NCBI RefSeq assembly: GCF_005844085.1
Contig: NZ_VCDI01000004.1
Coordinates: 124,001 to 188,000 of the forward strand
From: Lichenicoccus roseus
Lineage (GTDB): Bacteria > Pseudomonadota > Alphaproteobacteria > Acetobacterales > Acetobacteraceae
Direction: 5' to 3'
Length of the DNA stretch: 64,000 bases
The notes below the pieces were generated by a model. That model saw nothing but the letters and a program-made list of their open reading frames with translations, was not told the origin of the DNA and did no database searches. This document shows, in pieces, positions 23,761-27,308 of this stretch (positions are counted from its first letter, which is position 1; each line of letters opens with the position of its first letter). The translations under genes were made by a program, and so were the position numbers.

Positions 23761-24436
23761 CCACCCTGCTCCCCGGGAATGAGAAGCAGACGCTACATGA
23801 TGGGCTCTATTACGACGTCGACCACTAGATAAGGTTCAGGCGACGGGCGCAAGTATTCGGTAAGTGGGCGCTTCGAAGGTGTTGCAGCCTCAACACGATG
23901 AGCCGGACGATCCCCTCGATCCACAGGCTGTGGACAACAGTCCGACTCGCCAGGATCGGACCACGCTTCGCCCCGCCGCGCATGGGAGGGCCCGATCCGG
24001 GGGCATGGCGGCGCTCTTCGGCCCCGGGGGACCCGTCGGCGCGCGTCTCCCTGCAGGCCGGGCCACCCGTAAGGCCCCTCGCGGATCCACCCGCCGCCGG
24101 AGACAAGGACGTCGGATATCCAGCCGGATCGCCGCCATCGGCGTGCCTGACGTGATCTCGCAGGCACAGTGATGCGAACCGGCCCGCCCACGCTGTGCGC
24201 TCCGACCCCGCACTCGATTGTTACCCGACCGGATCGGGCAGCGGCGCCGAAGGTCCGTCTTTTTGTTTCAACTCGTCCTAAATATTGGTCTTGAATGCGG
24301 ACGCAATTACCAACGGTTTCAGTTGTGTGCCCGCAACAACATGTTTAATTAGGTGCGATAATTCTTCTCGCCGTGCTGGCGCTAGCGAAAGGATGTCTCA
24401 AGTTGAATATCGACGACAGGCTGAGGAACGCGACCG
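23761..24436. other. Long divergent intergenic region, nrdA to PYP-like gene
   Basis: This 676-bp gap is the largest in the window and separates nrdA (leftward) from the PYP-like gene (rightward). The left half is GC-rich and contains the DnaA-box-like pair at 23917-23937 and a small hairpin GTGTTG/CAACAC at 23879-23896. The right part, about 24255-24375, is clearly AT-richer than its surroundings (CCTAAATATTGG, GTTTAATTAGG, GATAATTC) and is the natural place for the promoter of the PYP-like gene, though no clean -35/-10 pair is seen. Short open frames here look like chance. Confidence 0.6.
23917..23937. promoter_or_regulatory. Paired DnaA-box-like sites upstream of nrdA
   Basis: CGATCCACA (23917-23925) and, inverted three bases later, TGTGGACAA (23929-23937), which reads TTGTCCACA on the other strand. 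The second differs from the TTATCCACA DnaA box by one base, and the first is close to the Caulobacter TGATCCACA form. The shared TCCACA/TGTGGA arms make a perfect inverted repeat. The site is 157-177 bp upstream of the nrdA ATG. DnaA control of nrdAB is known in E. coli; here it is inferred. Confidence 0.4.
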
Positions 24437-24802
24437 GTGCCCCCTTCATTCGACGAAGTCACGTTGGATCTTCTGGACGCTGCGACAGCCTCCGAGCTCG
24501 ATGATCTCCCGTTCGGGGTGATCGGCTTCGACCGCGACGGGATGATCGAAACCTACAACGCGATGGAGTCCAAGCTCGGCGGCCTTTCCCAGGAGAGGGT
24601 CATCGGCCGCCATCTCTTCCAGGCGATAGCACCTTGCATGAATAACTTCATGATCGCGCAGCGCTTCGAGGACGAGCCGGATCTGGACGAGCGCATCGAG
24701 TATGTCCTGACGTTTCGGATGCGACCGCAGCCGGTGATCCTGCGTCTGCTGCAGCAGCGCTACCGTGCCCGTCGCTACATCGCCATCCTCCGGCGCACCT
24801 GA
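24437..24802 (+). CDS. Photoactive yellow protein-like PAS photosensor
   Basis: Single-domain PAS protein of 121 residues that lines up along its full length with photoactive yellow protein. The chromophore-site residues of PYP are conserved: Y40 and E44 in ETYNAMES (PYP Y42, E46), the attachment cysteine C67 in AIAPCMNN (PYP C69), and M95 in TFRMRP (PYP M100). PYP T50 and R52 are replaced by G and L, and the loop after the cysteine is three residues shorter. The GTG start at 24437 is fixed by an in-frame stop at 24422, with GAGG ten bases upstream. It is followed six bases later by a GGDEF protein. Whether it binds p-coumarate is untested. Confidence 0.8.
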   Translation: MPPSFDEVTLDLLDAATASELDDLPFGVIGFDRDGMIETYNAMESKLGGLSQERVIGRHLFQAIAPCMNNFMIAQRFEDEPDLDERIEYVLTFRMRPQPVILRLLQQRYRARRYIAILRRT

Positions 24803-24808
24803 CCGGCC

Positions 24809-26104
24809 ATGAGCGACATCTTGGCAGGGTCTGGACTCGAGGCCGATTACGAACTGCTCCTCTCCTTCCTCTACATGTGTCCGGCCGGCCTGCTGCAGAT
24901 CGACCCGTCCGGCGCGGTGCGGATGGCCAATCCCCTCGCCGCCCAGCTCCTGCTGCCGCTGGGAGGCAGCCCGGTCCTCGACAACCTGTTCGAACGTCTG
25001 GAGACCTTCGCGCCGGAGATACGCAATCTCGCTTCGTCCTACAGCGCACCGCGCGGAACGATCTGCGCGAGCCATCGTGTCTTCGTGAATAAATCCTGGT
25101 CGAATCCGGAGGTGCTCTCGATCAGCCTCTTGCGTGTCGACCGCGATTGCCTGATGGCCGTCGTGACCGACATCTCGCTGCAGGTGAAGCAGGAGCGGCA
25201 GCTCAAGCAGACGGAGTCGTGGTTCGAGGCGATCTTCACGGGCGTCAACGATTTCGCCTTCTTCGCCCTCGACCGCTACGGACTGATCGAGGAGTGGAAC
25301 AGCTCGGGCCTCCGCCAGACTGGCTTCGAGACCGCGGAGATGCTGGGCCGCACACTTCATTGTCTGTATGCGTCCGACGAGAATATCCGTCACAAGCCGG
25401 AACTTCAGCTCGAGGCAGCGCGCCGCGAAGGCTGGCATGTCGATGAAGGCCGGTGCGTCCGCAAGGACGGAAGCCGCTACTGGAGCCAGAGCCTGGTTGC
25501 AGCGCTGCGCGAGGAGAATGGCGAGATCTGTGGCTTCTCGATGGTTCTGCGCGACATCACCGAGCGGCGCGTGACCGCCGCCGAGGTGCAGCGCCTTCTC
25601 ACGACCGATCATCTGACCGGGGCCGTGAACCGCGCGCGGTTCTTCGAGCTTGCGGAAACCGAGATCGCCCGCTGGCATCGGCATCGCCGGCCACTCTCGG
25701 TCGTCATGATCGACCTCGACCACTTCAAGCACGTCAACGACACGAGCGGACATGCCGCCGGCGATCAGGTATTGCGCGTGACCGTCGAACGCTGCCGCAC
25801 CGTCCTGCGGTCGTTCGATATCGTGGCGCGCATGGGTGGCGAGGAGTTCGTGATCCTGCTGCCCGGCACCGACGATCTGGAAGTCGTGGAGATCGCCGAA
25901 CAAATCCGGGCCGTCATCGCAACCGAACCGGTCGTGGCCGGTGACCTCCTGCTTGCGATCACCGCCAGCCTCGGTTGCGCGACGATCAGCGAGGACGCGG
26001 AGGATCTGGATGCGCTGCTCAAGCTCGCGGATGAAGCACTCTACCGTGCCAAGCGGCGGGGGCGGAACCGGGTGGAGACGCAACCGGTTCTGAACCCCCC
26101 GTGA
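24809..26104 (+). CDS. PAS-PAS-GGDEF diguanylate cyclase
   Basis: Signalling protein of 431 residues. Residues 1 to about 130 look like a divergent PAS domain (MCPAGLLQIDPSGAVRMAN), followed by a short linker and a clearer PAS with PAC motif at about 135-255 (ending SMVLRDITERR). The GGDEF domain follows with the active site GGEEF at 343-347, so c-di-GMP synthesis is expected. An RxxD inhibitory site, RSFD (334-337), is placed five residues ahead, so product inhibition is likely. It begins six bases after the PYP-like gene, presumably in one transcript, and is soluble with no membrane segment. Confidence 0.9.
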   Translation: MSDILAGSGLEADYELLLSFLYMCPAGLLQIDPSGAVRMANPLAAQLLLPLGGSPVLDNLFERLETFAPEIRNLASSYSAPRGTICASHRVFVNKSWSNPEVLSISLLRVDRDCLMAVVTDISLQVKQERQLKQTESWFEAIFTGVNDFAFFALDRYGLIEEWNSSGLRQTGFETAEMLGRTLHCLYASDENIRHKPELQLEAARREGWHVDEGRCVRKDGSRYWSQSLVAALREENGEICGFSMVLRDITERRVTAAEVQRLLTTDHLTGAVNRARFFELAETEIARWHRHRRPLSVVMIDLDHFKHVNDTSGHAAGDQVLRVTVERCRTVLRSFDIVARMGGEEFVILLPGTDDLEVVEIAEQIRAVIATEPVVAGDLLLAITASLGCATISEDAEDLDALLKLADEALYRAKRRGRNRVETQPVLNPP

Positions 26105-26324
26105 ACAGGCGACCGGCTTGTGGACCGCTCCGGGACGGTCTGTCCTGTTCCGTGGCAGTACCGATCACGGCGTGGATGCGCCGGTCGCATGATGTCGTTA
26201 CAGTTTTTGCAGCCGGCCCCTGGGCGACCGGCCTCGCGCTGGCCAAGCCCTATATCGTCCGGCGCACGCTCCCGTCGTTCCTCACCAACGCTGCTTGCTC
26301 TGCAGCAGCAGACTGGATCTCCCG

Positions 26325-27308
26325 ATGCAAGATCGAGTTTCTGTCGAGGCTGTCGCAGCCGATCAGGCTGCGGAAGCAGGCAGCCAGAGCATGACGACGG
26401 ACAGGCGCAGGCCGGACCGTCTCGAGACGGTCGCCCCTGGCCTGATCGGACTCCTGCGCAGTCCAGGTCCGACAGAGGCAGTCGAGCCCATCGGTGCCCC
26501 GCCACAGGAAGAGCGGCCCGCAGCGGCCGCAAAGGCGAAAGCCGCTGGATGTGTCGCGTGCCGAACGGGCAAGCCGGCGTTCCCGTTCACGATGGCGTTC
26601 CAGCCGATCGTCGATATCCGGAACAACCGCATCGATGCCTATGAGGCACTGGTGCGCGGACCACAATCCGAGGGCGCCCGGTATGTCCTGGACCAGGTGA
26701 CCGCGGAGAACATGTACAGCTTCGACCAGGCCTGCCGGGTCAAGGCCATAGAGATGGCGGCTGGCCTGGGCGTCGACCGGCAGCTGAGCATCAACTTCCT
26801 GCCCAATGCAGTCTACGATCCTCGTGCCTGCATCAGGGCAACCCTGGAGGCCGCAGGGCGCACGGGATTCCGTCTTGATCTCCTGACCTTCGAGATCCTG
26901 GAGTCGGAGACGGTCACCGATACCGCGCATCTGCTGGATATCATCCGTGAATACAGGAAGCACGGCTTCAAGATCGCACTGGATGATTTTGGGACCGGGC
27001 ATTCCGGCCTGGCGCGGCTTGCCGATCTGCGGCCGGATATCGTGAAAGTCGACAGGGCGCTGGTCAGGGATTGCGACAGGGACGGCACCAGGCTGGCGAT
27101 CCTGTCGGCAATCGTCCGCCTTGGCGCGGAGATCGGGGTGAAGGTCGTCGTCGAGGGCGTGGAACGCGCGGAAGAGGCCCAGGCCCTCCGTTCGGTCGGG
27201 GTCCGTTTCATACAGGGCTTCTATTTTGCCAAGCCGTTGTTCGAGGGCATCGCGCACGATGGCGATATTCCCTGGCTCGCCAGCGAGGTTCCAAGCCACG
27301 CATCGTGA
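26325..27308 (+). CDS. EAL-domain c-di-GMP phosphodiesterase
   Basis: Protein of about 327 residues with an N-terminal linker of about 95 residues (Ala/Pro-rich, containing CVAC) and a complete EAL domain. Catalytic motifs are all present: YEALVRG (EAL codons at 26643-26651), INFLPNA, FEILES, LDDFGTGHSG, VKVDRAL, VVEGVE and QGFYFAKP. It should hydrolyse c-di-GMP to pGpG. The start is uncertain between ATGs at 26325 and 26391. It lies about 220 bp after the GGDEF gene on the same strand, so it may be co-regulated or have its own promoter. It is likely the counterpart of the cyclase before it. Confidence 0.88.
   Translation: MQDRVSVEAVAADQAAEAGSQSMTTDRRRPDRLETVAPGLIGLLRSPGPTEAVEPIGAPPQEERPAAAAKAKAAGCVACRTGKPAFPFTMAFQPIVDIRNNRIDAYEALVRGPQSEGARYVLDQVTAENMYSFDQACRVKAIEMAAGLGVDRQLSINFLPNAVYDPRACIRATLEAAGRTGFRLDLLTFEILESETVTDTAHLLDIIREYRKHGFKIALDDFGTGHSGLARLADLRPDIVKVDRALVRDCDRDGTRLAILSAIVRLGAEIGVKVVVEGVERAEEAQALRSVGVRFIQGFYFAKPLFEGIAHDGDIPWLASEVPSHAS

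Follow-up and report, generated by a model that had tools for sequence, protein, structure and literature searches.

NPAS, a domain found nearly only with clade-C photoactive yellow proteins, as a candidate receiver of light signals on a diguanylate cyclase of Lichenicoccus roseus

The window analysed here is a stretch of 64,000 nucleotides from Lichenicoccus roseus (NCBI RefSeq assembly GCF_005844085.1, contig NZ_VCDI01000004.1, positions 124,001 to 188,000), and its positions 24,437 to 27,308 carry a gene for a small protein resembling photoactive yellow protein (PYP), a gene for a predicted diguanylate cyclase that starts six bases later, and a gene for a predicted standalone EAL phosphodiesterase. 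Our main finding is that the N-terminal ~128 residues of the cyclase form a domain, for which we coin the name NPAS, that occurs nearly only together with PYPs of one clade, clade C, and that stays in place when the output behind it is exchanged; the genes, their motifs, the family placement, the co-occurrence and the exchange of outputs were all directly established. We consider it rather likely that the locus is a light-to-c-di-GMP (cyclic di-GMP, a messenger of biofilm formation) module in which a separate PYP photoreceptor would act on the cyclase through NPAS as its receiver. Statements on the two published surveys of PYPs cited here (PMC9664959, PMC12826048) refer to the portions of their text covered by this analysis. 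The core of the locus is as follows.

24437-24802, forward strand: PYP-like gene of the clade-C type, GTG start, 121 amino acids; its open reading frame is present in the sequence
24803-24808, forward strand: spacer of exactly six bases between the PYP stop codon and the cyclase ATG, both genes lying in the same frame
24809-26104, forward strand: gene of the NPAS-PAS-GGDEF diguanylate cyclase, ATG start, 431 amino acids
24836-25192, forward strand: NPAS domain, the proposed PYP receiver, 155 bits to the NPAS profile
25253-25558, forward strand: second PAS domain of the cyclase, residues 149-250, PF00989, 51 bits
25604-26071, forward strand: GGDEF domain of the cyclase, 148.7 bits
25808-25819, forward strand: RxxD inhibitory site (RSFD) of the cyclase, residues 334-337, five residues before GGEEF
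25835-25849, forward strand: GGEEF motif of the cyclase, residues 343-347

These features bear out the initial annotation, which had described a free-standing PYP-like gene with the chromophore Tyr, Glu and Cys kept (Y40, E44 and C67), the six-base spacing, a cyclase with intact GGEEF and RxxD motifs, and a complete EAL gene downstream (179.6 bits, with EALVR, DDFGTG and EGVE). Its further proposal, that a separate sensor protein may set c-di-GMP levels, is supported by the gene content and agrees with how neighbourhoods of this type have been interpreted in the literature. By its motifs the cyclase is a diguanylate cyclase with an inhibitory site, the enzymatic activity being predicted.

The cyclase contains two PAS domains, and Pfam detects only the second of them. 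None of 24 NPAS members matched the Pfam PAS models at an E-value of 0.01, an NCBIfam scan of the whole cyclase gave no description of NPAS among the best 25 of 35 families, and an NPAS profile compared with solved structures returned weak matches only (best E 0.026). In the alignment of 24 domains, Tyr22, Pro25, Gly27, Gly35, Asn41, Pro42, Pro50, Pro69 and Asp121 are invariant. A structure model of residues 1-135, built from 7 sequences and chosen as the best of five (the remaining four had a mean predicted local distance difference test score, pLDDT, of 40-60), reached a pLDDT of 84.5 and a predicted template modelling score (pTM) of 0.74, and it has the PAS order of strands and helices followed by a terminal helix. 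When this model was used as a query for Foldseek, the best matches were PAS domains (best E 1.9e-5, 31 matches at E 0.001). According to the model, NPAS would fold as a PAS domain that ends in a helix.

The association of NPAS with clade-C PYPs is visible from both sides. Among 37 PYP loci, 25 clade-C PYPs were present with an NPAS gene directly behind nearly all of them, the exceptions being L085, which lacks NPAS, and L045, in which a second clade-C PYP intervenes before the NPAS gene; of 17 other-clade PYPs, none is directly followed by an NPAS gene. Searching by NPAS instead of PYP provides an independent test of the association. In the window's family, NPAS was found in 7 of 200 genomes (11 domains), these genomes include all 6 that have a PYP of at least 93 bits to P0001, and 9 of the 11 domains sit behind a PYP of at least that score. 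Of the 343 genomes of the G595 family, 74 contain NPAS, with 143 domains grouped into 83 clusters, and because the weakest reported match there has an E-value of 6.8e-30 despite a limit of 1e-6, NPAS can be regarded as a discrete family. In 76 of these 83 clusters the gene immediately upstream encodes a clade-C PYP; this holds for all 30 clusters retrieved with short flanks and for 46 of the 53 retrieved with longer ones. The reverse search in the G595 family, whose 264 genomes we take to be the first 264 of the 343, as their handles suggest, found a clade-C PYP in 52 genomes, every one of which carries NPAS; within the same handle range, 52 of 53 NPAS genomes have a PYP, G764 being the only one without, and all 13 other-clade PYP rows come from genomes with a clade-C PYP as well. 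In a sample of the class, NPAS was present in 1 of 385 genomes, namely the window's own, and on plasmids it was found in 11 records, all of them among the 12 whose PYP reaches 49% identity or more. NPAS occurs nearly only with clade-C PYP.

The domains behind NPAS are exchanged from locus to locus. Behind clade-C PYPs there are NPAS proteins of the PAS-GGDEF type, and there are also an NPAS-PAS-GGDEF-EAL protein in the window's own genome (L011) and a protein in which GGDEF-EAL follows NPAS with no second PAS (L006). Clusters of the G595 family commonly consist of PYP, NPAS-GGDEF and NPAS-GGDEF-EAL in this order, and 58 of the 83 contain NPAS twice. Of 89 frames of the first NPAS protein, a number that includes a few second genes truncated at the ends of loci, 85 keep GGEEF or GGDEF and 78 keep the inhibitory site. 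All 47 of the second NPAS proteins retain EAL and DDFG, and 1 of them has the inhibitory site. Since the cyclase keeps GGDEF and the second protein keeps EAL, one PYP precedes two enzymes with NPAS in common, a cyclase and a likely phosphodiesterase. If NPAS is the PYP receiver, as we propose, this would account for its persistence where outputs have been swapped or have disappeared. Many genomes encode an inhibitory-site cyclase and an EAL phosphodiesterase side by side, both with NPAS, and we give roughly even chances to the broader idea that NPAS is a dedicated docking socket, through which one PYP would address several effectors and opposite c-di-GMP activities would be set by one light-dependent PAS-PAS contact.

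Some proteins behind clade-C PYPs have less common architectures. In L045 (6425-8893, genome G142), two tandem clade-C PYP genes are followed by one NPAS-GGDEF-HisKA-HATPase protein with no second PAS, an unusual combination of a cyclase with a kinase. NPAS-PAS proteins behind PYP in L010 (5333-6457, the window's own genome) and L043 (588-1700) share a similar unrecognised C-terminus of ~120 residues (GKGDSFIIWF and GKGDSFVIWF, respectively), which is perhaps a decayed GGDEF. In L118, L119, L135, L141, L145 and L169, an NPAS-PAS protein of ~265 residues from the NPAS start, with no enzyme domain, lies between the PYP and the next NPAS gene, and these enzyme-less proteins are possible adaptors.

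In phmmer searches the PYP-like protein of the window matched the PYP domain of R. centenum Ppr (1mzu) with an E-value of 2.4e-16 and entries for H. halophila PYP with E-values of about 1e-10. Its Y40, E44 and C67 align with Tyr42, Glu46 and Cys69 and its M95 with Met100, Ile and Leu stand at the Phe92 and Phe96 positions, and Trp119 is lost, there being no Trp anywhere in the protein. In a PYP tree of 38 rows, 21 clade-C-like sequences including the window PYP split from 17 other PYPs with a support of 100/100; the label clade C was transferred by residue pattern, and the tree was built without the sequences of PMC9664959 itself. Judged from its sequence, the window PYP belongs to the PYP clade matching the published clade C (PMC9664959), and the concern raised by the initial annotation, that alignment might place the protein outside the PYP family, is answered by the branch of 21 rows. 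Among 100 clade-C PYP domains, which come from the fetched loci with near-copies counted, Cys69 and Glu46 are present in 100 each, and position 42 is Tyr in 98 and Phe in 2. At position 50, the Thr50 site, the same 100 domains have Ala in 90 cases, Ser in 9 and Gly in 1, the last being the window PYP; this position is linked with PYP colour (PMC12826048), and it is reported as Thr, Ser or Ala in the 12 PYPs of known absorbance. Clade-C PYPs in the plasmid records of L082, L083, L085, L087 and L090 are annotated as 'phosphonate transporter', a misannotation of PYPs that is also described in PMC9664959.

The initial annotation had called for a genome search for tyrosine ammonia-lyase (TAL) and p-coumarate:CoA ligase (pCL). 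Candidates for both enzymes are present, and neither scores above its curated enzyme-specific cut-off. The window genome has four PYP-like genes, of which those in the window, at C23:102.9k and at C21:9.4k are clade C; the fourth, at C12:777.5k, converges on a ligase-like gene (C12:777900-779054) with 293.2 bits to TIGR02372, the pCL of PYP, whose cut-off is 334.7. An aromatic lyase gene at C1:737783-739240 scores 547 bits to PF00221 and 672 bits to the BagA/FevW tyrosine ammonia-lyase model (cut-off 1000), and its product contains ASGDL (Ala-Ser-Gly) and YHL (His-Leu), the latter of which may mark tyrosine-type selectivity. A second aromatic lyase in the genome scores 376 bits. Elsewhere, a pCL-like gene lies within the fetched stretch (about 3 kb flanks) of 24 of 46 PYP-NPAS clusters, and many clusters adjoin pCL-like or TAL-like genes. 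Because TAL-like and ligase-like genes are encoded in the genome, a supply of p-coumaroyl-CoA in this organism is plausible, and the idea of a PYP without a chromophore pathway was considered and found unsupported. Just upstream of the TAL-like gene on C1 there is a fragment containing the C-terminal part of a ligase only (L012:6723-8840), which is likely a remnant.

In the module that we propose, Cys67 of the clade-C PYP would be loaded with p-coumaric acid supplied by the candidate TAL and pCL encoded elsewhere in the genome, and the loaded protein would absorb blue light. PYP would pair PAS-to-PAS with NPAS at the N-terminus of the cyclase, and the photocycle of PYP would alter the helix at the exit of NPAS, a change that would reach the second PAS domain and the GGDEF dimer. 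The synthesis of c-di-GMP would thereby follow light, whether upward or downward, with the EAL enzyme as the antagonist of the cyclase.

The pairing of PYP with NPAS was compared with that of PYP and GGDEF by correlating distance matrices. Starting from 98 PYP-NPAS pairs, 88 had GGDEF in the same frame and 67 were left after removal of near-copies, and the tandem clusters with two NPAS domains were reduced from 28 to 19. Over the 67 pairs, PYP correlated with NPAS at r 0.83 and with GGDEF of the same gene at 0.60. The difference was larger in partial correlations, which were 0.71 for PYP and NPAS at constant GGDEF versus 0.06 for PYP and GGDEF at constant NPAS (0.72 versus 0.13 with corrected distances). 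For the 55 pairs from the G595 family together with Caballeronia and Methyloversatilis, its beta-proteobacterial companions, the values were 0.76 for NPAS versus -0.17 for GGDEF. This test supports NPAS as the partner of PYP, short of proving contact.

Several observations weigh against the proposed module. Genomes of one family are not independent events, PYP and NPAS each occurring in 13 of 44 genera there, and NPAS genes may have been missed, as the genome scans scored part of the first-look candidates (e.g. 12/41). The co-occurrence also has exceptions: 7 of the 83 clusters in the G595 family are without PYP (L172, L174 and L181-L185), although for 6 of these 7 the genome has another PYP cluster and L182 is cut by a contig end; L181 (G764) comes from an NPAS genome without PYP at E 1e-10; and in the window's family, weaker NPAS-like domains with no PYP nearby were found in L136 (G142:C1:969841; 100 bits) and L137 (G155:C122:17340; 90 bits), a form that perhaps senses something else. 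Conversely, L085 (CP099603) has a clade-C PYP and no NPAS on the plasmid, and its PYP faces a CheB-CheR-PAS-histidine-kinase-receiver gene followed by a BLUF gene. No clade-C PYP-NPAS single-chain fusion was seen among the loci read, so that Rosetta-stone evidence is absent, and a model of PYP and NPAS read through as one chain was of low quality (pLDDT 63.7, pTM 0.48) and supports no interface. A promoter and terminator scan of the locus gave nothing useful and no promoter-like site. The chromophore, the light response, the docking on NPAS and the sign of the effect are steps that we infer, and the scores of the PYP-like protein to TIGR02373 and of the ligase-like gene to TIGR02372, both below the cut-offs of these models, count on the same side.

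The distance test is itself uneven, and this bears on the reading in which PYP controls the cyclase but docks on the second PAS or GGDEF domain, NPAS being an independent sensor that travels along as a DNA neighbour. Tight DNA linkage could yield such a distance signal without contact and so mimic coevolution; the 12 remaining pairs do not discriminate, with 0.56 for PYP and NPAS versus 0.63 for PYP and GGDEF; and in the 19 tandem clusters, with the other domains held constant, the signal of the first NPAS is weaker than in the 67-pair test (0.38, versus 0.09 for the first GGDEF) and that of the second is exceeded by its GGDEF (0.21 versus 0.36). The NPAS-like genes without PYP in L136, L137 and L181 also fit this reading. 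On the other hand, NPAS is kept behind PYP in proteins without GGDEF (L118, L119, L135, L141, L145, L169, L010 and L043) and in L045, where a GGDEF-HisKA-HATPase output follows with no second PAS. Because it is kept where GGDEF or the second PAS is absent, NPAS is the constant element, and we regard docking elsewhere on the cyclase as unlikely. Still less probable, in our view, is that the PYP-like protein is no photoreceptor here, its chromophore having been lost or changed, and that what it relays to the cyclase is a redox or ligand signal. In favour of this are the score to TIGR02373 (photo_yellow equivalog), which at 73.6 bits (E 1.4e-20) is under the cut-off of 143.05, so that we rejected filing the protein as this equivalog; the Gly at position 50, which only the window PYP has among the 100 clade-C domains; and the statement that no clade-C member had been characterised as of PMC9664959. 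The same survey reports that TIGR02373 covers 20% of PYP homologs. The conservation of Cys69 and Glu46 in all 100 domains argues against the loss of photoreceptor function, as do the pCL-like and TAL-like genes beside many clusters and the candidates for both enzymes in the window genome. The 30 GGDEF matches in the window genome in total and the 190 bases between the cyclase and EAL genes could raise the suspicion that unrelated signalling genes lie next to one another here by accident; we rejected this as scarcely credible, since the order of PYP followed by NPAS recurs in 76 of 83 G595-family clusters, in the window's family and on plasmids, and an order that recurs in so many other genomes is not due to chance. 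BLUF as a second partner was likewise set aside, BLUF-like genes being too few (2 of 53 stretches, L147 and L148, as well as L085 and L058).

The gene arrangement as such is not new, because clade-C PYPs beside GGDEF and EAL genes have been published (PMC9664959, PMC12826048). Researchers have noted that clade-C PYPs often adjoin GGDEF proteins and have called the partners of single-domain PYPs unknown (PMC9664959), and a survey of 113 pyp operons counted pCL in 42, GGDEF in 29 and EAL in 22, stating that mechanistic explanations are lacking (PMC12826048). Within the portions of these surveys covered here, the window locus is a further example of the published pattern, and NPAS with its near-exclusive link to clade C is the addition of this analysis; neither was found in the two surveys or in literature searches, one of which returned no paper pairing photoactive yellow protein with Variovorax. 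Like the published clade-C PYPs, the window PYP is a standalone protein with the triad and Met100 kept, Phe92, Phe96 and Trp119 lost, a cyclase gene adjacent and an EAL gene near, as is often the case (PMC9664959, PMC12826048); unlike in those accounts, a proposed N-terminal cyclase receiver and its co-occurrence with clade C are described here, and the window PYP has Gly50. The PYP of Idiomarina loihiensis is likewise a separate protein, thought to bind an adjacent GGDEF protein and to set biofilm formation (as cited in PMC9664959), but it belongs to clade A according to the same survey. Ppd of Thermochromatium tepidum and Ppr of Rhodospirillum centenum also use PYP as an input to a GGDEF/EAL or histidine-kinase output (PMC9664959, PMC12826048), but in these proteins PYP and a phytochrome are fused into a single polypeptide, whereas the window PYP is a separate protein with no phytochrome.

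PYP is among the best-studied photoreceptors in physics and chemistry, and how single-domain PYPs relay their signal is unknown according to both surveys (PMC9664959, PMC12826048). NPAS reduces the question of the PYP partner to two small soluble proteins, PYP and a fragment of ~130 residues. If the proposed module is real, it would provide c-di-GMP enzymes with a light input that can be exchanged, and NPAS would be a marker for light-controlled pathways in non-phototrophic bacteria, in which PYPs are often misnamed 'phosphonate transporter'. If the idea of a docking socket also holds, the missing partner of single-domain PYPs would be supplied.

The remaining features of the locus are a likely ribosome site and the elements of the EAL gene.

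24423-24428, forward strand: GAGGAA, which probably serves the PYP gene as ribosome site, 8 bases 5' of the GTG
26295-27308, forward strand: standalone EAL phosphodiesterase gene (predicted), 337 amino acids from TTG; the in-frame ATG at 26325 is an equally likely start
26550-26561, forward strand: CxxC of the standalone EAL protein, ahead of the EAL domain
about 26586-27236, forward strand: EAL domain, with EALVR, DDFGTG and EGVE read by eye

The gap between the cyclase and EAL genes is 190 bases with the TTG start or 220 bases with the ATG start, and the EAL gene is therefore less tightly joined than the PYP-cyclase pair. By its domain and catalytic motifs the EAL protein is a phosphodiesterase, with its activity predicted. 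We rejected its assignment as RimA, as it scored 308.7 bits to NF052265, below the cut-off of 430. In the window the antagonist is a standalone EAL protein, and seven other clade-C loci have a protein of the same type beside them. All 8 aligned standalone EAL proteins (the window, L043, L083, L084, L087, L088, L090 and L093) carry a CxxC ahead of their EAL domain, L083/L090 and L088/L093 being near-copies.

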